Positions 2,242 to 64,000 of a stretch of DNA of 64,000 bases are shown here, in pieces. Within the stretch, counting starts at the first letter, position 1, and each line of letters starts with the position of its first letter. The DNA comes from Tilletia caries (taxonomy: Eukaryota; Basidiomycota; Exobasidiomycetes; Tilletiales; Tilletiaceae), in assembly GCA_032718865.1 (NCBI GenBank), contig JALUTQ010000030.1, forward strand, positions 930,001 to 994,000. The letters run 5' to 3'. Under the pieces are notes generated by a model. It saw only the letters and a list, made by a program, of their open reading frames with translations, was not told the DNA's origin and did no database searches. The position numbers and the translations under genes are program-made.

Positions 2242-3981
2242 ATGCCGCTCAGCTACGCGGAACTGGAAGAGAAGGTGCTGACCGCGCTCGAGGAGGCGCA
2301 GGCGGAGCCGCGCGGCAAGCCAAACATCACAACAATCGCCAAAAAGCATGGAGTCGATGCACAGCGTCTGCGTCGCCGTTTCCACGGCAAAGAGAGCAAA
2401 TCCACGCGCCCGCCCACAAACCGCAAGCTGACCGACGCGCAAGAAGAGGCCATCTTGACCTGGATTGCCGTCCTGGACAAGCTCGAGCTATCCGCTCGAC
2501 CTGCGCTGATCCGCGCGTCAGCCAATCAGCTGCTCTTCGAGGCGCACACATCTTCAAGCACGCGAGCGCCAACCGTTGGCGACAAATGGGTGACCAATTT
2601 TTCTTGCCAGGCATCCCGAACTCGCCCTCGTTAAGCAAAAATCCCAGGAGCTGCTGCGGATGAGCCACGATCGCGCTACGTGCGCGCAGTTCTTTCAGAA
2701 GCTCAAGGACGTCGTCGCCAAGCACGGAATTGTCGCAGAAGACATCTGGAACATGGATGAAATCGGATTTCGGATTGGCATTGGGGGGTCACAGTGGATT
2801 GTCACGCTCTGCCACTCGCATGAGGCACGCGTCGCCAGCAGCACCAGTCGCGAGTCGGTGACTTGCATCGAGGCCGTGAGCGTTGGCGGTAATCACATAT
2901 CTCCGATGGTCATTGTCGCCGGCAGCCAGCACTCAGAGGCCTGGGCCAAAAACGACTTGCCCAGCGACACTCTCATTGGCGTCTCAGACTCGGGCTATTC
3001 GGACGATATCCTGGCGCTCCAGTGGATCAAGCATTTTGCAGCAGCAAGTGAGAAGCTTGTTCGCGGCAAGATGCGGTTGTTAATCTTCGACGGACACGGC
3101 TCCCATTGCACGCGCGAATTTTTGCAGGTGTGCACGACCAACAACATTATCCCGTTCACGCTCCCGCCACATTCCTCTCATTTTTCTCCAACCTCTAGAT
3201 GTTTCTGTCCTTTTCGGCGTACAAGCACTGGCACAAGGAAGCGGTCGATGCCGCTACGAGGACAGGCTGCAGCGATTTCAACAAGACGGAATTTTTAGCA
3301 GCACTCAACTCCATTCGCCGCAAGACGCTCAAGCCCAACACCATCAAGGCCGGCTTTCGCAAGACCGGAATCCATCCATTCTGCCCCGCGGTTGTGCTCG
3401 ACACTTTCACCGAGGAGGAAGAGCCTCTTGTTGTCCCGTCTTCGCCGCCCACCACATCTCTCGAGGCTCCGACCACTCCCCGCACAATCCGATCGCTCAA
3501 GCGCACGGCGTCGACACTGGAGGAGCTCACGGAGCAGCTCTCACCTTCGGTGCATCGTCAAGTACAAGTCTTTGTCCGTGGTTCATTGGTGCAAGCCCAG
3601 GCCGGAAACTTGGCGGTCACTGCCCTCGCTCAGAACACGGCTGCTCAGCAAGAACGCGACAAGCGCAAGGAGCGTCAGCGAAAAGTCACACAATCTGGAG
3701 GTGTACTCAGTATCGGTCTAGCACGGGCCATCTGCGAGGACAAGCTTGTTGAGGAGGAACGTCGTGCAGCTCGACGAGAATGGATGCTGGAGAAGAAGGA
3801 CATTCGAAAGCGCCTGACGGATGGATGGAACAAAGTCCACGCGCAGCTGCGACGAGTAGTCAAAAAGCAACGAGTAGCAAATGAGGCGGTGCCAGATGAG
3901 GAATCAGACGTCGACCACGATCAGGAGGCTTTTTTGGACGACGATCTGCTCTTTGAGGATGTCTTTGGCCCAAGAGAGTAG
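2242..3981 (+). pseudogene. pogo/jerky-type DDD transposase, three apparent +1 frameshifts
   Basis: The ATG at 2242 opens a Psq/CENP-B type N-terminus (ITTIAKKHGVDAQRLRRRF, then LTDAQEEAILTWI and a second HTH). It is followed by the DDE_1 superfamily core: MDEIGF (first Asp, codon 2755), IFDGHGSH (second Asp), a PPHSSH segment, and LQPLDVSVF with the third Asp, as usual for pogo-like DDD enzymes. A basic/acidic tail ends at TAG 3979-3981. The frame shifts at the T5 run 2598-2602, the T5 run 3181-3185 and a C doublet near 3209. One surplus base in each place would account for the breaks. About 580 codons once aligned, normal for the family. As written no full-length protein can be made. Confidence 0.85.
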
Positions 3982-49894: not shown

Positions 49895-50029
49895 CTTGAG
49901 CTCCGGAGCGTTTTTCTTCTATCGGGAGAAGGGACGGGGGGATGCCGGAGACACGAAAGATGCCAAAACGCTTGATTTTATACTGAAAATGCGATACACT
50001 CAGTGCCTGAGCCTGACCGCAATTTAGAG

Positions 50030-50350
50030 CTCAGGTCATATAAAATGTCAGATTATGCAAGAATATGACATAATTATGCATGGTCATATGACAGAATTAT
50101 GCGTTTTTCCGGCCCGGCTGTGAACTTTTTGTCAGAATACTGTCATACATAAGACATATGTTCTGCATTGTCATATGACAGAATATGACAGAATTTAGGG
50201 CGATAGATTGTGTCATATTTCTGTCATAAAGCTGTCATATGACAGCCACGGGAGGCATTATGGCCATAAATATGACAATGAGACTTTGTCATAAACCTGT
50301 CATATGACTATGACAATTTTTTTGTCATAATTCGGTCATATGCATAATTG
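50030..50350. repeat. AT-rich TGTCATA array, right of the kinase gene
   Basis: At least a dozen TGTCATA/TATGACA heptamers, many as the palindrome TGTCATATGACA, in an AT-rich island. It resembles the array at 43395-43560, in reverse complement near the outer edges (TGCATATATGAC against TGCATATGAC). Confidence 0.65.
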
Positions 50351-50759
50351 TGACCCGTCCCTTACCCTGTGGGGTCGGAGTATTCCCCAAACTCTATTAC
50401 CGCTAGAAGTTAGAAGTTTACGTTATATTTTTGGTAGCCATGGTTTAGGGCCATGACTCATGAGGTCTTCCTGAGACTTTTTTAGACTCTACAGTAAGTT
50501 TTTTTTTCATCGCCATTTCAGCTGCTTTGCGTCAACCGTTTTCATCCCGTTTTGCCCGTTCGTTAGGGGAATTCGGGCCTTCAGCGCTCCAGCGTTCAGG
50601 GGAGCGTTTCCCCCCCCCCTGATTCTTGTATACTTTTATGTTCCTCTGAGGTCGAGAGAAAGTAGAGACGTGATATGTATATTGACTGACAGGTGATCTG
50701 GCGTATGTCAAAAATCCCGGAGCTCTCGCTGCTGATTTTACTGACGTTTGTCTTTGAGG
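50351..50759. other. Spacer before the satellite
   Basis: No gene seen; includes a poly-T and a poly-C9 run. The first diverged satellite sequence begins near 50760. Confidence 0.5.
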
Positions 50760-53700
50760 ACATGTGTTCGCGCTCGACTTCAGTTTCCGTCAACCTGCCA
50801 CTGACGGATCTCGCTCAATTCTGGCTCGTTCTCTCTCCAACCTTGATAAGTATGATCAGCTAGGCTTTATCTATCGTTTCAATCGATCGTGGAAAAAAAA
50901 TGACATGGATTCACCCTCTATCCGACATCATGGTCGTGGTCGGGCGGAAGAAGTGATCCGAGCTGTCCGATCGTACTAAATAAGGGAGATTACATTTCTT
51001 AGACATGACTACTAATACAGAATGATAGATGAGCGTGTGATTGAGCTGTGTGTGAATCGTGAGACGCATGAGAAGCGTCGTTGTTGAGAAATGGCCGGAT
51101 ATGAGGCGCGCACACAGGGGTACTAAGTACGCGCCGAGTTTGCTCTGATCAATCTCGCTCAATTCGTGCTCAATCTCTTTCAAACCTTCACACGCGTGAT
51201 CAGGAAGAATGTAGCTATCATTTCCGTTGATCCTAAATAAAAAATGACATAGGTTCCCCCTATAATCGGACATCATGGTCGTGGTCGTCCGGAGGAAGTG
51301 ATCGGAGCTGTCCGAGTCTACTAAGTAAGGAAGATTGCATTTCTCAGACCTAGTTACTATTACAGAAAGATAGATGAGCGTGTGATTGAGTAGCGTGTGT
51401 AATGTGAAGCTCGAGCGCAGCGTCGTTGTCGAGTTATGGCGAGATATGGGACTCGCGCTGAGCCGATCTTCCCGCTGACCGAAAACTGACAGTACTCGCT
51501 CAATTCTGGCTCAATCTCTCCCAAACCTTGACATCCATGACCAGGAACACTGTAGCTATCATTTCCATTGATCCTAAATAAAAAATGACATAGGTTCCCC
51601 CTATAATCGGACAACATGGTCGTGGTCGTCCGGAGGAAGTGATCAGACCTGTCCGAGTCTACTAAGTAAGGAAGATTGCATTTCTCAGACCTAGTTACTA
51701 TTACAGAAAGATGCATGATGGTGTGATTGAGTAGCGTGTGTAATGTGAAGCTCGAGCGCAGCGTCGTTGTCGAGTTGTGGCGAGATATGGGACTCGAGCA
51801 GAGCCGATGTTCTCGCGGACTGAAAACTGACAGATCTCGCCCAATTCTCGCTGGATCACTCTCAAACCTTCACACCCGTGTTCAGAAAGACTGTAGCTAT
51901 CATATTCATTGATTCTAATAAGAAAATGGCATAGGTTCCCCCCTGCAGTCGGACAACATGGTCGTGGTCGTCCAGAGGAAGTGATCAGAGCTGTCCGAGT
52001 CTACTAAGTAAGGAAGATTGCATTTCTCACAAATGAATACTACTACAGAAAGATGTGTGATGGTATGAATGAGTTGTGTGTGAAGTGAGAAGCTCGTGAG
52101 AAACGTCGTTGTCGAGTTATGGCGAGATATGGGACTCGCGCTGAGCCGATGTTCCCGCGGACTGAAAACTGACATTTCTCGCTCAATTCTCGCTCAAATT
52201 CGCTCAAACCTTCACATCCATGTTCACGAAGACTGTATCCACTGTTTCCATTGATTCTAATAAAAAAATGACATAGGTTCCCCTATAATCGGACCACATG
52301 GTCGTGGTCGGGCGGAAGAAGTGATCCGAGCTGTCCGATCGTACTAAATAAGGGAGATTACATTTCTTAGACATGACTACTAATACAGAATGATAGATGA
52401 GCGTGTGATTGAGCTGTGTGTGAATCGTGAGACGCATGAGAAGCGTCGTTGTTGAGAAATGGCCGGATATGAGGCGCGCACACAGGGGTACTAAGTACGC
52501 GCCGAGTTTGCTCTGATCAATCTCGCTCAATTCGTGCTCAATCTCTTTCAAACCTTCACACGCGTGATCAGGAAGAATGTAGCTATCATTTCCGTTGATC
52601 CTAAATAAAAAATGACATAGGTTCCCCCTATAATCGGACATCATGGTCGTGGTCGTCCGGAGGAAGTGATCAGACCTGTCCGAGTCTACTAAGTAAGGAA
52701 GATTGCATTTCTCAGACCTAGTTACTATTACAGAAAGATGCATGATGGTGTGATTGAGTAGCGTGTGTAATGTGAAGCTCGAGCGCAGCGTCGTTGTCGA
52801 GTTGTGGCGAGATATGGGACTCGAGCAGAGCCGATGTTCTCGCGGACTGAAAAACTGACAGATCTCGCCCAATTCTCGCTGGATCACTCTCAAACCTTCA
52901 CACCCGTGTTCAGAAAGACTGTAGCTATCATATTCATTGATTCTAATAAGAAAATGGCATAGGTTCCCCCTGCAGTCGGACAACATGGTCGTGGTCGTCC
53001 AGAGGAAGTGATCAGAGCTGTCCGAGTCTACTAAGTAAGGAAGATTGCATTTCTCACAAATGAATACTACTACAGAAAGATGTGTGATGGTATGAATGGG
53101 TTGTGTGTGAAGTGAGAAGCTCGTGAGAAACGTCGTTGTCGAGTTATGGCGAGATATGGGACTCGCGCTGAGCCGATGTTCCCGCGGACTGAAAACTGAC
53201 ATTTCTCGCTCAATTCTCGCTCAAATTCGCTCAAACCTTCACATCCATGTTCACGAAGACTGTATCCACTGTTTCCATTGATTCTAATAAAAAAATGACA
53301 TAGGTTCCCCTATAATCGGACCACATGGTCGTGGTCGGGCGGAAGAAGTGATCCGAGCTGTCCGATCGTACTAAATAAGGGAGATTACATTCCTTAGACA
53401 TGACTACTAATACAGAATGATAGATGAGCGTGTGATTGAGCTGTGTGTGAATCGTGAGACGCATGAGAAGCGTCGTTGTTGAGAAATGACCGGATATGAG
53501 GCGCGCACACAGGGGTACTAAGTACGCGCCGAGTTTGCTCTGATCAATCTCGCTCAATTCGTGCTCAATCTCTTTCAAACCTTCACACGCGTGATCAGGA
53601 AGAATGTAGCTATCATTTCCGTTGATCCTAAATAAAAAATGACATAGGTTCCCCCTATAATCGGACATCATGGTCGTGGTCGTCCGGAGGAAGTGATCGG

Positions 53701-56700
53701 AGCTGTCCGAGTCTACTAAGTAAGGAAGATTGCATTTCTCACAAATGAATACTATTACAGAAAGATGCGTGAGGGTGTGATAGACTAGGGCGTGACGTTG
53801 GAAGCTCGGGAACAGCGTCGTTGTCGAGTTCTGACTCAATATGTGCGTCGCGCGCAGGGGTACTAAGTAGCCGCCGAGTTTGCTCTTATCGATCTCGCTC
53901 AATTCTTCCTCAATCTCTCCCAAACCTTCACACCCGTGATCAGGAAGACTGTAGCTATCATTTACACGCATTGAAATAAAAAAATGACATAGGTTCCCCC
54001 TGCAGTCGGACAACATGGTCGTGGTCGTCCGGAGGAAGTGATCGGAGCTGTCCGAGTCTACTAAGTAAGGAAGATTGCATTTCTCACAAATGAATACTAT
54101 TACAGAAAGATGCGTGAGGGTGTGATAGACTAGGGCGTGACGTTGGAAGCTCGGGAACAGCGTCGTTGTCGAGTTCTGACTCAATATGTGCGTCGCGCGC
54201 AGGGGTACTAAGTAGCCGCCGAGTTTGCTCTTATCGATCTCGCTCAATTCTTCCTCAATCTCTCCCAAACCTTCACACCCGTGATCAGGAAGACTGTAGC
54301 TATCATTTACACGCATTGAAATAAAAATGACATAGGTTCCCCCTGCAGTCGGACAACATGGTCGTGGTCGTCCGGAGGAAGTGATCAGACCTGTCCGAGT
54401 CTACTAAGTAAGGAAGATTGCATTTCTCAGACCTAGTTACTATTACAGAAAGATGCATGATGGTGTGATTGAGTAGCGTGTGTAATGTGAAGCTCGAGCG
54501 CAGCGTCGTTGTCGAGTTGTGGCGAGATATGGAACTCGAGCAGAGCCGATGTTCTCGCGGACTGAAAAACTGACAGATCTCGCCCAATTCTCGCTGGATC
54601 ACTCTCAAACCTTCACACCCGTGTTCAGAAAGACTGTAGCTATCATATTCATTGATTCTAATAAGAAAATGGCATAGGTTCCCCCCTGCAGTCGGACAAC
54701 ATGGTCGTGGTCGTCCAGAGGAAGTGATCAGAGCTGTCCGAGTCTACTAAGTAAGGAAGATTGCATTTCTCACAAATGAATACTACTACAGAAAGATGTG
54801 TGATGGTATGAATGAGTTGTGTGTGAAGTGAGAAGCTCGTGAGAAACGTCGTTGTCGAGTTATGGCGAGATATGGGACTCGCGCTGAGCCGATGTTCCCG
54901 CGGACTGAAAAACTGACAGTACTCGCTCAATTCTGGCTCAATCTCTCCCAAACCTTCACATCCATGTTCACGAAGACTGTATCCACTGTTTCCATTGATT
55001 CTAATAAAAATGACATAGGTTCCCCTATAATCGGACCACATGGTCGTGGTCGGGCGGAAGAAGTGATCCGAGCTGTCCGATCGTACTAAATAAGGGAGAT
55101 TACATTTCTTAGACATGACTACTAATACAGAATGATAGATGAGCGTGTGATTGAGCTGTGTGTGAATCGTGAGACGCATGAGAAGCGTCGTTGTTGAGAA
55201 ATGGCCGGATATGAGGCGCGCACACAGGGGTACTAAGTACGCGCCGAGTTTGCTCTGATCAATCTCGCTCAATTCGTGCTCAATCTCTTTCAAACCTTCA
55301 CACGCGTGATCAGGAAGAATGTAGCTATCATTTCCGTTGATCCTAAATAAAAAATGACATAGGTTCCCCCCTATAATCGGACATCATGGTCGTGGTCGTC
55401 CGGAGGAAGTGATCGGAGCTGTCCGAGTCTACTAAGTAAGGAAGATTGCATTTCTCACAAATGAATACTATTACAGAAAGATGCGTGAGGGTGTGATAGA
55501 CTAGGGCGTGACGTTGGAAGCTCGGGAACAGCGTCGTTGTCGAGTTCTGACTCAATATGTGCGTCGCGCGCAGGGGTACTAAGTAGCCGCCGAGTTTGCT
55601 CTTATCGATCTCGCTCAATTCTTCCTCAATCTCTCCCAAACCTTCACACCCGTGATCAGGAAGACTGTAGCTATCATTTACACGCATTGAAATAAAAAAA
55701 TGACATAGGTTCCCCCTGCAGTCGGACAACATGGTCGTGGTCGTCCGGAGGAAGTGATCAGACCTGTCCGAGTCTACTAAGTAAGGAAGATTGCATTTCT
55801 CAGACCTAGTTACTATTACAGAAAGATGCATGATGGTGTGATTGAGTAGCGTGTGTAATGTGAAGCTCGAGCGCAGCGTCGTTGTCGAGTTGTGGCGAGA
55901 TATGGGACTCGAGCAGAGCCGATGTTCTCGCGGACTGAAAACTGACAGATCTCGCCCAATTCTCGCTGGATCACTCTCAAACCTTCACACCCGTGTTCAG
56001 AAAGACTGTAGCTATCATATTCATTGATTCTAATAAGAAAATGGCATAGGTTCCCCCTGCAGTCGGACAACATGGTCGTGGTCGTCCAGAGGAAGTGATC
56101 AGAGCTGTCCGAGTCTACTAAGTAAGGAAGATTGCATTTCTCACAAATGAATACTACTACAGAAAGATGTGTGATGGTATGAATGAGTTGTGTGTGAAGT
56201 GAGAAGCTCGTGAGAAACGTCGTTGTCGAGTTATGGCGAGATATGGGACTCGCGCTGAGCCGATGTTCCCGCGGACTGAAAACTGACAGTACTCGCTCAA
56301 TTCTGGCTCAATCTCTCCCAAACCTTCACATCCATGTTCACGAAGACTGTATCCACTGTTTCCATTGATTCTAATAAAAAAATGACATAGGTTCCCCTAT
56401 AATCGGACCACATGGTCGTGGTCGGGCGGAAGAAGTGATCCGAGCTGTCCGATCGTACTAAATAAGGGAGATTACATTCCTTAGACATGACTACTAATAC
56501 AGAATGATAGATGAGCGTGTGATTGAGCTGTGTGTGAATCGTGAGACGCATGAGAAGCGTCGTTGTTGAGAAATGACCGGATATGAGGCGCGCACACAGG
56601 GGTACTAAGTACGCGCCGAGTTTGCTCTGATCAATCTCGCTCAATTCGTGCTCAATCTCTTTCAAACCTTCACACGCGTGATCAGGAAGAATGTAGCTAT

Positions 56701-57750
56701 CATTTCCGTTGATCCTAAATAAAAAATGACATAGGTTCCCCCCTATAATCGGACATCATGGTCGTGGTCGTCCGGAGGAAGTGATCGGAGCTGTCCGAGT
56801 CTACTAAGTAAGGAAGATTGCATTTCTCACAAATGAATACTATTACAGAAAGATGCGTGAGGGTGTGATAGACTAGGGCGTGACGTTGGAAGCTCGGGAA
56901 CAGCGTCGTTGTCGAGTTCTGACTCAATATGTGCGTCGCGCGCAGGGGTACTAAGTAGCCGCCGAGTTTGCTCTTATCGATCTCGCTCAATTCTTCCTCA
57001 ATCTCTCCCAAACCTTCACACCCGTGATCAGGAAGACTGTAGCTATCATTTACACGCATTGAAATAAAAAAATGACATAGGTTCCCCCTGCAGTCGGACA
57101 ACATGGTCGTGGTCGTCCGGAGGAAGTGATCAGACCTGTCCGAGTCTACTAAGTAAGGAAGATTGCATTTCTCAGACCTAGTTACTATTACAGAAAGATG
57201 CATGATGGTGTGATTGAGTAGCGTGTGTAATGTGAAGCTCGAGCGCAGCGTCGTTGTCGAGTTGTGGCGAGATATGGGACTCGAGCAGAGCCGATGTTCT
57301 CGCGGACTGAAAACTGACAGATCTCGCCCAATTCTCGCTGGATCACTCTCAAACCTTCACACCCGTGTTCAGAAAGACTGTAGCTATCATATTCATTGAT
57401 TCTAATAAGAAAATGGCATAGGTTCCCCCTGCAGTCGGACAACATGGTCGTGGTCGTCCAGAGGAAGTGATCAGAGCTGTCCGAGTCTACTAAGTAAGGA
57501 AGATTGCATTTCTCAGACCTAGTTACTATTACAGAAAGATAGATGAGCGTGTGATTGAGTAGCGTGTGTAATGTGAAGCTCGAGCGCAGCGTCGTTGTCG
57601 AGTTGTGGCGAGATATGGGACTCGAGCAGAGCCGATGTTCTCGCGGACTGAAAACTGACAGATCTCGCTCAATTCTCGCTCAAATTCGCTCAAACCTTCA
57701 CATCCATGTTCACGAAGACTGTATCTACTGTTTCCTTTGATTCTAATAAA
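50760..57750. repeat. Satellite array: about 20 monomers of about 343 bp with a 1372-bp higher-order repeat
   Basis: The box CATGGTCGTGGTCG recurs at 50929, 51274, 51615, 51958, 52298, 52642, 52984, 53324, 53669, 54014, 54358, 54700, 55039, 55385, 55730, 56071, 56411, 56758, 57102 and 57443. Spacings are 339-347 bp (mean 342.8). Monomers fall into subtypes A (GGGCGGAAGAAG, GCGCGCACACAGG), B, C (CAGACCTG, GAGCAGAGCC), D (CCAGAGG, ACATCCATG) and E (GTGATAGACTAGGGCG). The order is A-B-C-D-A-C-D-A-E-E-C-D-A-E-C-D-A-E-C-D'. From 55039 the four-monomer block A-E-C-D repeats at an exact 1372-bp period with near identity. The first and last monomers are diverged or hybrid, as at array edges. No terminal inverted repeats or plausible genes. 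Confidence 0.95.
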
Positions 57751-57782
57751 TTAAGAAGGTTCATAGAGTGTGACGGAGCAGT
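55039..57782. repeat. Two consecutive 1372-bp higher-order units (A-E-C-D)
   Basis: Monomer starts 55039/56411, 55385/56758, 55730/57102 and 56071/57443 are offset by 1372 (once 1373), and the two blocks are nearly identical by eye until the terminal monomer becomes a C/D hybrid and then decays near 57750. An earlier A-E-(E)-C-D block at 53324-55038 carries one extra E monomer. Confidence 0.9.
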
Positions 57783-58260
57783 GTGCGAAGTGTGAAGCTT
57801 GCGAGCAGCGTCTACATGTGTGCACATGCATGAAATGTGACGGTGTGGATGACAGTAGAGTGTCATGTACGTGTTGATGACTGATGTAGACCATTTGCAA
57901 ATGCATGACATGCGATCCTGTAAATAGCGATCGAGTGTCATGCAGGGTTTTATGTGCATGACAATCGTTCGGGTGTCACCTCAGTAAAAACGAACCCGCC
58001 GTGGCCCGTGTACCCGCTGCTAATCCGCGGTGACTTTGGAGCGGATGAGACTCGCATCCCCAGCGGGTCAGCAGCGGGTCACCCGCTGTGCTTCCGCTTG
58101 GACACAGAATCCACGATGTACAGCGGGTCGCCCGCTCCTAACCCGCTGCCCTCTCACGGCTAACACGCGGTAAACTGACAGACAAAGATGTTCTATTGAC
58201 CCGCGCTGCATCCGCGCCTCACCCGCTGCTAACCCGCTGCTAATACACTTTCGCCTCTCC
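57751..58260. repeat. Decayed satellite edge and ACCCGCTGCTAA repeat cluster
   Basis: A diverged monomer remnant (GTGTGAAGCTTGCGAGCAGCGTC) leads into a GC-rich block with repeated ACCCGCTGCTAA / AGCGGGTCACCCGCT motifs (near 58010, 58060-58085, 58120, 58218-58245). Possibly another MITE; no target duplication recognised. Confidence 0.45.
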
Positions 58261-58291
58261 TTCCAGCCTCTCCCTTAGTGCCCACCCTGCT

Positions 58292-58871
58292 TCATACCCC
58301 TCCCACCCTCCCCTCTCCTCTGCTCCTTCCTCTCATGTTCTTGTCCGGTCGTACTTCTCTCCCCCTCCGCTCCTCCAAATCAGAAGCATCAGAATTCAGA
58401 TACGTACCACTGGATGTCGTCCTCGGCGCCCTTGGTCTTGAGTTGGCGCAGGAAGAAGTAGGCACGGAGAACCGGTGAAGCTGTGGGGCCCGGAAGAGAA
58501 AAAGCAGAGAGAGATCGATCAGCAAGTGGAGTCTGAATGGCTGCGATCAAAGAGAACGAATTCCGATGCAGACTTACCGTAGTTGGTAGTCCGTAAGACC
58601 GTAAGGCGTAACAACGACGGCGAAGGAGACGATGGCAGCGTATGCTCTAGGGATCGAGCTGGGAGAAGTTGGACAGATGAAAGAGAAGGGGCGAGCAAGT
58701 CAGACACAGCCCATCTAGTAACACGGCCTCTGGAATGAAACATACCTCCTTGTCGAACTGTTGTTGTGAGTCCGTGCAAAAAGAGAAAAGAGGTCAGTGA
58801 CAGGTCGATCATGATAGCGCCGGGTGCGCGAAATAGCATACCTGTTTGATCTGCTGCAATCGTGCGGCCAT
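58292..58871 (-). pseudogene. Unrecognised gene relic with very short exons
   Basis: The ATG at 58871 gives MAARLQQIKQ, then a GTATGC donor, a 12-nt exon (FDKE) and an exon encoding a hydrophobic stretch (RAYAAIVSFAVVVTPYGL). A last exon reads SPVLRAYFFLRQLKTKGAEDD. Splice signals are good, but the third exon needs one base less to stay open (CCCTAGAGC) and the next junction does not keep phase. It therefore looks like a decayed small membrane-protein gene. The family is not recognised. Confidence 0.35.
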
Positions 58872-59567
58872 TGTTGCTGATGCTGTGTGCTTGGTGGATG
58901 AGCGATGAACTGAGAGAGAGAGATAATCAATTATCAAGCGAGTCGGGTCAGCCATGGGAAGACAGCATATAACTCACAGTGCCGAGAATAGAGCGTGCGG
59001 GGCGGGACCCGATTACCTGAAGGCAAGCGCGGCTAGAGCGAGCAGACGAGGAAGCAGACGGAAGGGAGAGAAAAGGAGTGATAGAGAACACTGCAGATGG
59101 GGAGAAGAAACAATGAAAGAGAAGCGTGAGCTGCAGAGAGTCAGAATGAGAAGAGGAGAGAGTTTGGCCAGTGATTGGTCAGAAAAGAAGCAGGTCAAGA
59201 GCAGTCAGTGGTCAGCAGAGTGAGAGACGTCAGACGAGTGAGAGAACGCTGTAATGATATGGACTTGTCAATGCTAGTTGGGTAAAGCCTAAAGGTCAGC
59301 AACAATGCGCAGTGACAACGCTGTCACGGTCAGCATAGAAAGAAGGGGACGCAGAAAGCAAAGGCCTGCAGAATTGAGAGACGCGGTATTCAGATAGAAC
59401 GTCAGATGTCAGAACAAGGGCGAAGCGAATCCAGTGGGGAAGATAAAGAGCGGAGTGCCCACCTTGTTCAGCTTTCATAGAGTGAATGGAAGCATGGTTA
59501 GTCAAAGAGCGCACAGCAACCGCTGGCGTCAAACCTCGCAGCGCGAGGCAAGGAGACAATGGTGATA

Positions 59568-59960
59568 CTCACATGATGCCGTCGAGCTGGCATCCATCCG
59601 CGGCAACCCGTCCAACTCGGCTAACTCCATGCCACCGCAGATCATGCCGGCGAAGACCTCGCGGGTGTTGCTGGTGACGAGCGTCTTGCTGTTGTTCATG
59701 TCGGGGGCACCCATATGCTTGAGCTTGCGCAGATTGAGAGCGTTGAGGCGCTTGGGGAATGTCAGGTGGCCGTAGAGAGATGATGAGTTCCGTTGAATCT
59801 CATGCAAATCAACGACGCGCTTCTGGACTCACCATCAACTGACCACCGAGCGAGCAGCCGCCACCAGGGCTGACGCTGGCCTCGAAAACGGTGATGAGCA
59901 AGTCAGGGCGGGCCTTGGTGAGCGAGTAGCAATGCATGCGTAGGCACAGTAAAGCCGGCT
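59568..59960 (-). pseudogene. THI4 (thiamine thiazole synthase) relic, central part lost
   Basis: On the minus strand, an exon ending GTGAGT at about 59826-59831 encodes [14 protein letters not shown] followed by [13 protein letters not shown]. This is the dinucleotide-binding region of Thi4 (compare the family pattern ARPDL...EA...PGGG.WLGGQL). The next exon, about 59790-59570, encodes MGAPDMNN...NTREVFAGMICGGMELAELDG, the conserved C-terminal Thi4 motif. The roughly 150 residues normally between them, including the sulphur-donating catalytic cysteine, are absent, and the Gly-rich start of the domain is frame-damaged. Thi4 makes the thiazole half of thiamine; this copy cannot. Confidence 0.72.
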
Positions 59961-60179
59961 CAGGTCAGCATACAGTCACGCGTGGTATCGAGATGCATGG
60001 AGGGGAATGGGACGTACCAGCATGGAGCACCTGCAGAGCCATCCATGATTGACACTTGACAGCCTGCTGGAGCCTAGAGAAGAAGAAGGAGGAGACTGGA
60101 GATGAACAGAGATCAGGAGGAAGATGAAAAAAGGGGCGAGGAGCAAGACACTCACTCACCTTGGAACTTGGGTGGTTTA

Positions 60180-60810
60180 TGGACTGCAACGAAGAGAAGC
60201 AGAAGTGTTCGCGTGCGTCACAGGTTCTGGATGTTCGAAGCCAGAGGCCAGGACGCACCTCCCGATGGCTCGTGGAAGTGCCGATTGGGGCCACGAGGGA
60301 GTGTGGTGATGAGGATCCTAGCTGCTACTAAGATGTCGAGTCCGAACAGAAGCTCGACGCCTTGGCCCCGGATTGAGAATAGGGAGAGAGGATGGGGTCA
60401 GCCGGCGAACCTGAAACCGAATGGTCAAGGGAGACTGTGACACCGGCGAACATACTGTTGAGAGTGCCTGCTCGTGACAGCCTGGGGGAGCGGGCGAGCA
60501 AGGACCGTTTGCCTGCCTCCGTCCGGACGTGCTTGAGGAGGTTGCCGCGATTGCAGAAGGGCACGATGAAGATCTCGACGCTGCTGTCATGCTCCGTCTA
60601 CTGGCCTGATGCAATGCGCTCGTGGTAGAGAAGGAGCAGGTTGTGCGGGTGGTTGGGGAGCATATTGCACGACGCCAGCTCGTCGGTGGGCTGCTGCCGG
60701 GAAGGGGGGTTCTAGAATGGGTGCTGTCCGCATACGTCTACTCACCTAACCTTCGCGAGCTTCGTTTGTGAGTGAAAGGGGTGATGAGCGTCGGAGGACG
60801 AGGAGGCCAT
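60180..60810 (-). pseudogene. STK16/NAK-like protein kinase relic
   Basis: An ATG at 60810 opens a Ser/His-rich exon (MASSSSDAHHPFHSQTKLAKV, GTGAGT donor). An exon at about 60715-60480 encodes ASCNMLPNHPHNLLLLYHERIASG, an in-frame TAG, then EHDSSVEIFIVPFCNRGNLLKHV. The HPH...L..HE and VEIFIVPFCNRGNL pattern matches the N-lobe of STK16/Env7-type kinases. Further down, HREVRPG may be a degenerate HRD catalytic loop. The P-loop and DFG were not found and the stop breaks the frame, so it is a relic. Confidence 0.42.
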
Positions 60811-61063
60811 GATGAGTCTGCCAAGGATAGAAGCAGTTGTCGCTGGTCAGTGGACAGCTGGGGCTGGTGAAGACGCGCAAGACTTGGTACTCACGGGCCA
60901 CGGCGCGTGCGCAGCGGGTTTACCGCGGGTGGTGAAAATGCGATCTTGGAAGAAAGTGTTGCTCTGGGAGTTGAACTTGACGTCTTTCGTTCAGAGCGGG
61001 TTCGCCGCGGATATGCAGCGGGTAGTTTGTGCGACGAGATTCCATTCTGACTGCTGCTGAAGG

Positions 61064-61100
<37 letters not shown>

Positions 61101-62174
61101 GGGAGTGGAGGCGAGCGCCGCCGCTGCCGGCAGTCAGAGAATGGTCAGTAAATGCGCGAGGAGCGAGGGTGCGAGGGGGGAGACGTAGACCAGAGGGACG
61201 GTGATGGTGGTGGTGGAGTTCTGTAGGCAGTTGAAGGACATGAGGCAGCACGCAGAAGGCAACAGATAGGGGCTCTTCTCAAGCCCCAAACGCCCCAGGT
61301 CCGTGCAAAGGTATCTATCTCATCTTGAAGGTGAAGAACCAACAGATGTCAAGGGAAGAGAAGGGTAGCAGGGGAAGAGAAGCGTAGCAGGGAACACCAA
61401 CAAAATCCATCGCATTGTCGCAGAAATGTCAGATGAGAGCAGAGAGACGCAAGCCTTCAGTTGTAACTTGTACTGCACCACTGGTCGAGCTTACTGTGCC
61501 TGAAAAAGGATGTGAGTGAACCTGAAGCTGGTGATGCTTTGACCTGTGAGCAACTCGAGAGAGGTAAATGAGGTGGTTGTGCACGGTCCTACACACCTCG
61601 AAGGTCGCGAAGGTGAAGAACCAACACTTCGGAGGGGGTCAGAAATGTGAGGTCAAGGACAAGTCGCCTTCGTCCTCAACAAACCGCGTCCCAAACCGGG
61701 ACGTTAGATGGCCCGAATTCAAAACGCGACACGCCCATGTAAAAAAAGTGATGTGTTTACTAACAGAATCTGGGAGCTCACTCAGAGGACGTCGGTCGAC
61801 TTTTAATGATTTGCTTACGGCCGTAAGATTTCCGGCACCCCATAAACCCCATCCGTTCTTCAGAGAATGGTCACAGACATTAGAGTGAGGTCACGTTACC
61901 GGACACAGCGGTCACCAGCTAGAAATACCCGATTTCCTTGAACCTAGGACAGTTATCCTGCGGGGCTCCTATAGGATGTACATGTATCGGCCGAAAGCCT
62001 TGAGCTAGTAGAGCGCAGCGCGTGAGCGCGTCTTCCTTCCTGCCAACCAGCGCGTCTTTCCTCCTGTACATCCATCTCTTCTCTTCTCTCCTTGCAACAC
62101 ACACACCCAAGTTCCCGACTCCCCGACTGGTCTGCTTCATTCAAGTGACAGCTCCCCTCCCTCCCTCCGCCGTG
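60811..62174. other. Intergenic with GA microsatellite
   Basis: A long GA run at about 61067-61097. No supported gene. The last 130 bp, rich in C/T (CTCTTCTCTTCTCTCC), probably form the promoter or leader of the following gene. Confidence 0.45.
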
Positions 62175-64000
62175 ATGGACGTGGATGCACCGTCCACCGC
62201 GCCCTCGGCGGATACGCAGCCTCCGGTTGTCCCGGTTGTCGCGTCTCCTCCGCTTGGCAGTCTCATCTCAGCGCCATCAACGGCAGTGGGTGGACGAGGT
62301 ATCAAGAGGAGACGAGATGGAGTCATATATACCGACAGTAGAAAGCGATTGGCGGTTTTCTGGTGTTTTTGGACAGGAGAAGGGAGGAACTGTGGCCTCC
62401 AGGGCGAAGCAGCTTGGCGTAGGTGTGCCTACACTGTACTCCTGGAAGCAGACGCACGATCAAGGCATCAAGTGAGTTTGGATCACAGCTTGATTCAGTC
62501 CCTGGGCACACAGTCTGATACATCGTCTTTTCTCACACTCGATGCAGCCTTGGATGCACTCCAGCTCCTGACTCAGCTCTGGCTGAAGAGCTTACATCAA
62601 ATCGATCACGTTCTTCTGCCTCTAATCTCGCGATATTTTTGAAGCCACAGGATGCAAACTCTCTCGCCCGGGAACCAGGAGGTAGTCGTAACGTCAGCGG
62701 TGTCCGAAGCAATACACAGGTCGAGCAAGAGAGACAATCCTCGACGGCGTTCGAACGAGCGGACGGACTTGGTCCACAGGTGGAGAGCGAGGAGACATTC
62801 GGGGCGGCTGGTCCTGGTGTATTGCCGCCCGAGCTAGTTGAGCAGCTGCGGATTAGTGGTGCACTGGCTACCGATGCGGAGATTGCGGGGGCGATGGCGA
62901 TCCAGCTGGACGCCGACACAAGACCGGGGGCGCAAACGTTCGTGAACGAGACGATCGATCTTGCGCTCCACCTCAAGCAGAGTACTCTCGCTCCTGGAAC
63001 CAAAGCAAACTGGGACCGGTGTAAGAGCAGCTTTCTCGTAAGTCGATGTGTTGAGCGAGTCCAGTCCCCTTGGCTTGACACTGGCATCTCAGACTACTGA
63101 CTTCTTTGTTCAACTCACTTCTACCCCGGCATCTCTCTCTCTCTCAGACGTTTTTGGCGCTGTCTCAACCGCATTCGCTCGCAGCAACCAGCGCTTGGAG
63201 CGTCGTTTGCAGCCGAGGTCCCTTCTCCGCTATCGATGCAAGCACCAGCAAGAGTGATCTCGAGCCCGAGCGCAAGCGCAGCACCAGCAGCCAACGAAAA
63301 TGCTCCAGCCACAGCGAACGCCCACGCCTGTGATGCGATGGAGGTGCACACCGAAGAGAGCAGCGCGGAGAGTGAGGCGCGGGAGCAGAGCAACGTCGAC
63401 GAGGTTCTGGTGTCTGAGCAAAAGCTCGTCACATACTTGAAGTGAGTGCTGGTTGTTGTCTGTTGTGCGAGCGAGCTGGTATGGTGAGGGCAGATGCATC
63501 CTGCTGTCAATATATCACATTGTTGTGTTGTGCTCGAGTGGCTGACTTGGTATTGTGTCTTTGGGCTTGCATCGTCACCACAGCTGCTTTGTGTTGCACC
63601 GAAACCCACAGATCGGCGACGAGGGCCTGGAGACCCATGTCAAAGCTATCGTCAACCTTTGGGAGACGCAGGTCCTGAAGGGCGCCAACACCTTTCCTCA
63701 CCCGCGCAATGGCGCCCTGCTGAAAGCCTTCAGGAAAGCAGTCCGGCGACACAAGGTTCAGCACTCAGAACTGCTCGGAGAGGACACTTGGAAGCACTCG
63801 CTCAACGACGGGTACACGGAGGATCAGCATCTCGAGATCAGTCAATGGTACCTCAGGCAAATGTCCCAGCAGCCCAGCACCTCCCAGCAGCACAGCACCA
63901 TCGCCTACCCCGCCTCAGCTTCCGACGCCTGCGACACCTCCACTTGGAGAGCTCGATTCGACTTCCTGATGCAGCATGCCATCATGGGAAGGTCGGAAGA
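62175..64000 (+). pseudogene. Crypton-like gene: HTH plus start of a tyrosine recombinase, runs off the window
   Basis: Exons 62175-62471, 62548-63037, 63148-63441 and 63584 to the window end (GTGAGT/GTAAGT donors, phases consistent). MDVDAPSTAPSADTQ, a basic patch (GIKRRRDGVIYTDSRKRLAV), then an HTH-like segment (GGTVASRAKQLGVGVPTLYSWKQ). The second exon has a helical SAM-like stretch (NETIDLALHLKQSTLAPGTKANWDR). The last encodes VKAIVNLWETQV, PHPRNGALLKAFRKAVRRHK and WRARFDFLMQHAIMGRSE, which resembles the region around the first catalytic Arg of fungal Crypton tyrosine recombinases. Two single-base surpluses (T run near 62355; T5 near 63150) break exons 1 and 3. The remaining catalytic motifs would lie beyond 64000. 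Confidence 0.6.

Follow-up and report, generated by a model that had tools for sequence, protein, structure and literature searches.

A dispersed tandem array with higher-order structure in Tilletia caries, probably forming the internal repeats of a non-autonomous Helitron-like element

Results

The tandem array and its surroundings

The window, a stretch of 64,000 nucleotides of Tilletia caries DNA (GenBank assembly GCA_032718865.1, contig JALUTQ010000030.1), lies at C25:930001-994000 in a genome of 38.1 Mb in 40 contigs and contains a satellite-like tandem array at positions 50800-57750, which begins 452 bp inside a Helitron-like transposable element with its left end at 50348. Searches with 16 open frames of the window identified GCN1, VID27, a PAS-domain protein and a protein kinase, as well as a fragment of a DDE_1 transposase at 2594-3298. 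Over 501 residues, the GCN1-like protein is 100% identical to a protein recorded for Tilletia controversa and 90% identical to one of T. indica, in keeping with a Tilletia host. The G+C content of the array is 46-48%, and that of the remaining window 52-67% per kilobase, except for 43% at 50001-51000.

Tandem Repeats Finder (TRF) reported a single array with a period of 341, 20.3 copies and a score of 7634, and an exact 13-nt anchor was found 20 times within it, resulting in 20 head-to-tail monomers of 339-346 bp on the plus strand in about five subtypes. Pairwise identities of the monomers ranged from 68 to 100% and grouped them into subtypes, the letters of which were assigned by us from the identity matrix; their order is A B C D / A C(B-like) D / A E E' C D / A E C D / A E C C-D-hybrid. 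In our reading of the matrix, monomers m6, m10 and m20 look like hybrids. A first 1372-bp A-E-C-D block is located at 54930-56301 (anchors at 55040, 55386, 55731 and 56072) and a second, whose last monomer is the C/D hybrid, at 56302-57673 (anchors at 56412, 56758, 57103 and 57444), both on the plus strand and delimited by block alignment. Anchor distances between these last two blocks were exactly 1372 for A, E and C, and from D to D 1371 and then 1372. The two blocks differ in 35 of 1374 aligned columns, six of which fall in the first 1216 and the other 29 in the hybrid last monomer. The strict four-monomer block occurs only about twice, and the higher-order repeat of the window is therefore short. 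Mean monomer identity was 88% at a lag of four monomers versus 80% at a lag of one, so that multimers are more alike than adjacent monomers, as in higher-order repeats.

These measurements agree with an earlier reading of the window made from its letters alone (hereafter the sequence-only reading) as regards 20 GC-balanced monomers in tandem, a C/D hybrid as the last of them, a fungal source, a satellite-like array and signs of unequal exchange. Its spacing of 339-347 bp holds in substance, with 346 as the measured upper value; its subtypes are separated by the identity matrix, although 'B' is 88-95% like the C monomers; and its A-E-C-D block repeated at 1372 bp is supported by anchors and alignment, albeit for the two strict occurrences and with the one D spacing of 1371.

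TRF also indicated an 11-bp sub-repeat within some monomers, which may, speculatively, favour slippage. A coding repeat was ruled out: monomer lengths vary by non-multiples of 3, and the long minus-strand open frames across the array therefore represent no repeat protein. With regard to structured RNA, no Rfam family reached the gathering threshold in the window.

Dispersal of the monomer

Searching the genome with 1401 bases of the array returned 58 matches, which form 37 clusters on 19 contigs; four further places bring the count to 41 clusters on 22 of the 40 contigs, with up to five sites per contig. These counts depend on a clustering distance of 5 kb and are lower bounds, and many of the clusters are partial monomers or consist of one to three monomers. 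With up to two mismatches allowed, a 30-nt pattern had 292 genome matches, and its control none. The array-type repeat is thus real and dispersed, and a centromeric interpretation finds no support. The 20 loci fetched for comparison (L009-L028) were the best-scoring matches and not a random sample; L035, L036, L042 and the array on contig C15 were added later.

Ends and insertion sites of the element

The flanks of the loci are common to groups of loci and have sharp limits. In the window, the left terminal module (50348-50799, plus strand) starts with TTGTGACCC directly after an A, at a boundary common to C15:15865, C4:1018330 and C4:1188007. It belongs to one of five related families of left ends: A (TCGGGACCGG), B (TCGTGACAGACC), C (TAGTGACCTGG), D (TTGTGACCCGTCC; the family of the window copy) and E (TAGTGACCATGG). 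Fourteen of the 20 loci L009-L028 carry such an end, oriented like the array and 0.14-2.6 kb upstream of it, and others are present in the window, C15, L035 and L042. Family C is backed by the flanks of L009 and L017, which are 96% identical. An A precedes the left end in all 20 rows found, and the dinucleotide that follows is TC in 10 of them (families A and B), TT in five (family D, including the window) and TA in five (families C and E).

The right ends of families A, B and D fold into hairpins of -5.8 to -6.1 kcal/mol (one sequence each, without a shuffle control), and the terminal 11-12 nt are an inverted copy of a repeat located about 35-45 nt inward from the left end. The pairs are TTACCCAGACTC with GAGTCTGGGTAA in L016, TTCCCCAGACTC with GAGTCTGGGGAA in L014, which differs from L016 at both ends in matching position, and TTCCCCGAACTC with GAGTTCGGGGAA in L035; the left module of the window has the inner repeat TTCCCC(A/G)AACTC about 35 nt in. 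A gapped right-end pattern was found at 152 places in the genome, and the reversed pattern, used as a control, at none. Within the 13 kb upstream, an array on the same strand was located for 9 of 20 right-end matches of family A and 10 of 20 of family B, a total of 19 of 40 that includes the query loci and loci already fetched, with the 13-kb limit chosen after the positions had been seen; on the wrong strand and on the wrong side the count was 0 of 40 each.

The joined flanks of L019 align continuously with two empty sites, at 95.9% and 93.8% identity over 194 columns, one of them inside L035 and the other just upstream of the left end of L024. The junction, ...AAAGTA/TAGTG..., places the insertion between A and T with no target duplication; this evidence is paralogous and comes from a single genome. 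The results demonstrate a multi-copy element with sharp common ends and arrays of variable length, one copy of which sits between A and T without duplication. The orientation of the element depends on the convention: the left end would be 5' in the canonical one, and the end with the terminal inverted repeat would be 5' in that of FoHeli and Helitron2 (PMC5148889).

Two further arrangements of ends were observed. At C1:945013-951005, four same-strand right-end hairpins of one related family are spaced 1982, 1976 and 1983 bp apart and look like whole short elements head to tail, as rolling-circle concatemers would give. In L018, the array is cut short by a related element in the opposite orientation, starting with the right-end hairpin.

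The copy in the window

Compared with its sister copy L035, the window element is 83% identical on the left (50346-51424), 78% after the array (57765-57979) and 85% on the right (61204-61851). The post-array module (57751-57979, plus strand) also matches six places on C15, where a homologous segment is interspersed six times in the array, as well as C4:1005164 and C4:1186778, and aligns with L035 and L028. The interior that follows (57980-61203) is not common with L035; from 57979 to about 61029 it resembles another dispersed family, apparently nested. The right terminal module (61204-61851, plus strand) corresponds to 5081-5696 of L035, and several other copies match only to 61851. In L035 this module runs on into the terminal hairpin, whereas at the right junction of the window copy (61844-61874, plus strand) the usual hairpin is replaced by sequence that is matched elsewhere without the right module, with a weak alternative hairpin of -3.9 kcal/mol. 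Matches to this junction are of two kinds, those that run up to 61851 and those that begin only at 61844/61845, so that the two overlap by 7-8 nt. The left neighbour of the element is a repeat with 26 other matches reaching the join, and the right neighbour matches other places independently. In the interpretation favoured below, the window copy extends from 50348 to a right module ending at about 61851, and the other repeat family is apparently nested in the interval that separates the array from this module. The first 82 bp of the family-D end of the window recur at seven places that lack the remainder of the left module; five of the seven array-less left-end matches of this family have a right-module match in the right order and on the right strand, 1.3-12 kb away.

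Array length and higher-order register

Copies with common flanks that are 98.5-99.7% identical differ in the number of their monomers, with 6 in L016, 3 in L019 and 10 in L012. The higher-order unit likewise varies with the locus, being a 2-mer in L009 (mean identity 96% at lag 2 versus 75% at lag 1), a 3-mer in L012 (93% at lag 3 versus 82% at lag 1, after two of 12 anchors, spurious at 45% identity, had been dropped) and a 4-mer in the window and in C15 (for the latter, 90% at lag 4 versus 85% at lag 1). L014, with six monomers, showed lag 2; the lag comparison gave no higher-order unit in L016 and L011, and only a weak one in the eight monomers read from C10. The nearest neighbour of a monomer was at the same locus in 18 of 20 cases in the window, 39 of 41 in C15, 8 of 8 in C10 and 12 of 13 in L009, and for arrays of one to three monomers mostly at another locus. 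Arrays have thus been homogenised locally and have changed in length between near-identical copies.

The longest arrays are on three contigs. On C15, a family-D left end is followed by 42 anchors to the contig end, and the array extends over the first 15.4 kb of the contig. C4 has a left end at 1619558 and, 14 kb from it, a right end at 1605485, which together enclose 33 monomers; the sequence was read except for the 2.5 kb before the right end. One 32-nt motif had 71 matches, all 71 of them on C10, where they extend from the contig start to 25.9 kb and are interrupted by two gaps of about 0.8 kb; 4.5 kb of this array were read, and no element end was found within 553 bp beside it. The first C10 monomer contains, by eye, an element of about 500 bp with inverted ends GGACGGCCTTGTTTCCCCGAA and a short flanking duplication (L041, C10:25800-27300).

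A second host element

The same monomer is found in L010, L013, L020 and L021 (with L029-L032) within an unrelated 10.4-kb element, referred to as CACCGCC, with ends CACCGCCAACGAA. Both ends were identified in three of these four loci and form a 13-bp terminal inverted repeat (TIR), one with mismatches; by eye, they are flanked by the 2-bp duplications TA, TA and GA. The copies, 97.6-99.7% identical, carry 4, 4, 2 and 2 monomers and have common tracts of 8-10 kb that are 97.6-99.5% identical, and the four-monomer arrays of L010 and L013 are near-identical (100% after rounding). In a search for its transposase, no Pfam domain was detected at E 0.01 in 10 of the 24 listed open frames, introns not being considered. 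The assumption of a single type of host element was rejected, as the TIR element also carries the array.

Discussion

Origin of the array

We consider it very probable that a non-autonomous Helitron-like element of the rolling-circle type carries the array as its internal block of tandem repeats, and that the array has been spread by transposition, with lengthening at individual sites. Insertion between A and T without duplication (an A before 20 of 20 left ends, a T after six of nine right ends, and the empty sites of L019) and a hairpin near the 3' end are features of canonical Helitrons. The element would be mobilised in trans by a RepHel protein whose gene lies elsewhere in the genome; the Helitron_like_N domain (PF14214) had 60 genome matches, some of them pieces of one gene, none of which was linked to the ends, and the closest such match is separated from an array by about 5 kb (C34:625725, outside the fetched loci). 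Rolling-circle transposition would copy the array as a passenger to new sites, where unequal exchange or replication slippage would lengthen and homogenise it, giving rise to locus-specific higher-order repeats; a few arrays would reach satellite size.

Several results weigh against this interpretation. The ends are only partly those of canonical Helitrons, with a 5' TC in 10 of the 20 rows and TT in the window; all nine right ends are GTAA or GGAA and not CTRR (the search patterns asked for RAA-type ends), and a T follows in six of the nine. An antisense control over the same sequences gave four hits, all with the motif of family C, which is the shortest. Among the fetched loci, L023 has a right end only, L028 has neither end, and four of the 20 lie in the TIR element, so that the Helitron-like element is not the sole carrier of the monomer. 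The window copy is without the usual right-end hairpin, and no genome match spans its joined flanks as an empty site would. No PF14214 match lies between the ends of any element with both ends seen, and among the 100 listed of the 152 right ends, two are located within 12 kb after a Rep match on the same strand. By a rough estimate from comparison by hand, two pairings are about what chance would give, and the linking of right ends to Rep genes was dropped.

The sequence-only reading had suggested a centromeric, pericentromeric or subtelomeric site. A true chromosomal satellite of this kind, invaded or picked up by transposons at a later stage, would account for the long arrays at the ends of C10 and C15, for a G+C content below that of most of the window in combination with higher-order structure, and for the C10 array with no element end beside it. 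We nevertheless regard it as improbable: monomers occur at 41 or more sites on 22 contigs, several per contig, where a centromeric satellite would be expected at one major locus per chromosome in gene-poor chromatin (the sites being counted by contig), conserved genes are present in the window, 14 of the 20 fetched loci have an element left end before the array, the C15 array itself opens with the left end of the element, and the array of the window begins 452 bp inside an element whose left end is common to other loci. The sequence-only reading had named monomers confined to the interior of a known transposon family as grounds for its own refutation, and this is largely borne out, although no named family was matched and no element end was found in the 553 bp beside the C10 array, the longest. 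Derivation of the array from the 10.4-kb CACCGCC element, with subsequent transfer to the Helitron-like element, is suggested by four loci in highly similar copies of it, three with both ends; it appears very unlikely given that these are only four of 20 loci, that the window copy and its close relatives have other ends and that 10 open frames of the CACCGCC element contain no Pfam domain.

The repeats might instead be functional within the element, for example as a replication-stimulating region, or be produced by rolling-circle replication itself, rather than being passengers; this is unlikely but deserves more weight. Families A to E have related ends with the block at 0.14-2.6 kb from the left one, and HINEs of other organisms likewise contain central repeats (PMC7492417, PMC4067079); family-D left and right modules, however, also exist without an array, as in L036, and the array therefore seems not to be required. 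Collapsed or expanded repeats in the assembly might be invoked for the two contigs that start inside arrays, but such an artefact can hardly be reconciled with diverged and ordered subtypes or with the near-identical four-monomer arrays of L010 and L013.

Building on the Helitron-like element as the carrier, we tentatively raise the possibility, in itself rather doubtful, that the family serves as a nursery of satellites in a compact fungal genome. A seed array would be carried to new sites and build its own register at each while the flanks diverge by about 1%, and some arrays, those on C10 (25.9 kb) and C15, would have outgrown the element to become free satellites at landmarks of the chromosome such as heterochromatin or centromeres. 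Human centromeric alpha satellite has a higher-order structure in which diverged monomers form multimers repeated at high identity; the Tilletia array differs in being dispersed, transposon-borne and of kilobase scale, without centromere evidence. Our results suggest that higher-order satellite structure, which is usually tied to animal and plant centromeres, could arise in a transposon of a 38-Mb fungal genome with no known connection to centromeres. Copies that are nearly identical but differ in array length represent datable replicates of early satellite birth, and tandem arrays at contig ends of fungal assemblies should not be equated with centromeres unless transposon ends have been checked.

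Related elements

The 11-12 nt inner repeats, the hairpin and the array agree with the structure of HINEs and Helentrons. As the target is not TT, the element was not filed as a HINE, and in the absence of CTRR it was not filed as a canonical Helitron; HELPO2 ends in CTTG, so CTRR is not universal (PMC4289320). Cg_HINE of the Pacific oyster (PMC7492417) is similar in being a non-autonomous element of the rolling-circle type with subterminal inverted repeats, a palindrome, central satellite-like repeats and dispersed short arrays, described with an empty-site analysis. Its monomers are mostly of 140-180 bp and its longest array has 29, compared with about 342 bp and up to 33 and at least 71 monomers in Tilletia. 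Locus-specific higher-order repeats and the A/T target are on the Tilletia side, and the phrase 'higher order' has no match in the available oyster text (PMC7492417). DINE-1/HINE elements and Helentrons likewise have subterminal inverted repeats, a 3' stem-loop and central repeats; in contrast to the A/T target of the Tilletia element, Helentrons prefer TT, and the position of the inverted repeat is mirrored in the orientation used here (PMC4067079).

Among fungal elements, FoHeli of Fusarium oxysporum, of the Helitron2 type, has asymmetric terminal inverted repeats of 12-16 bp, one near the terminus (within a hairpin in FoHeli1/2) and the second some tens of bp inward from the other end, an arrangement reminiscent of the Tilletia termini. 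The target of FoHeli1/2, TNAT/A, and their terminal sequences are different, and the available text has no mention of 'satellite' and uses 'tandem' for tandems of whole elements (PMC5148889). HELPO1.3 of Pleurotus ostreatus shares a basidiomycete host, non-autonomous copies, the A/T target and an internal satellite, with the repeat number named in a figure legend; its copies are mostly of 1.5 kb, and unlike in Tilletia no long arrays or higher-order repeats are described in the part available (PMC4289320). A satellite inside a non-autonomous fungal Helitron has therefore been depicted before, and oyster and Drosophila elements of similar architecture are known; the scale, the higher-order structure and the second host transposon type are new. 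A helitronORF class has been named in bunt fungi (PMC9172201), fungal Helitrons and satellites have been counted separately (PMC4522978), and the centromeres of a Tilletia relative were predicted from low GC, low gene density and long terminal repeat elements (PMC10849329). A search of titles and the beginnings of abstracts, with subscription literature mostly outside its range, returned no published account of this array in Tilletia.

Repeats adjoining the window element

The sequences beside and within the window copy belong to further repeats. Its left end is adjoined by a palindrome-rich dispersed repeat at 50121-50347 with TCATATGACA motifs. The family at 57979-61029 has copies of patchy similarity on C9, C28, C3, C30, C5 and other contigs. 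On the right, 61844-62250 is a multi-copy sequence running into a gene-like stretch, which also occurs at C4:975883, C23:186137, C23:186346 and C40:891320, the two C23 copies forming an inverted pair 62 bp apart. By eye, a similar reading frame seems to come after the element in L036.

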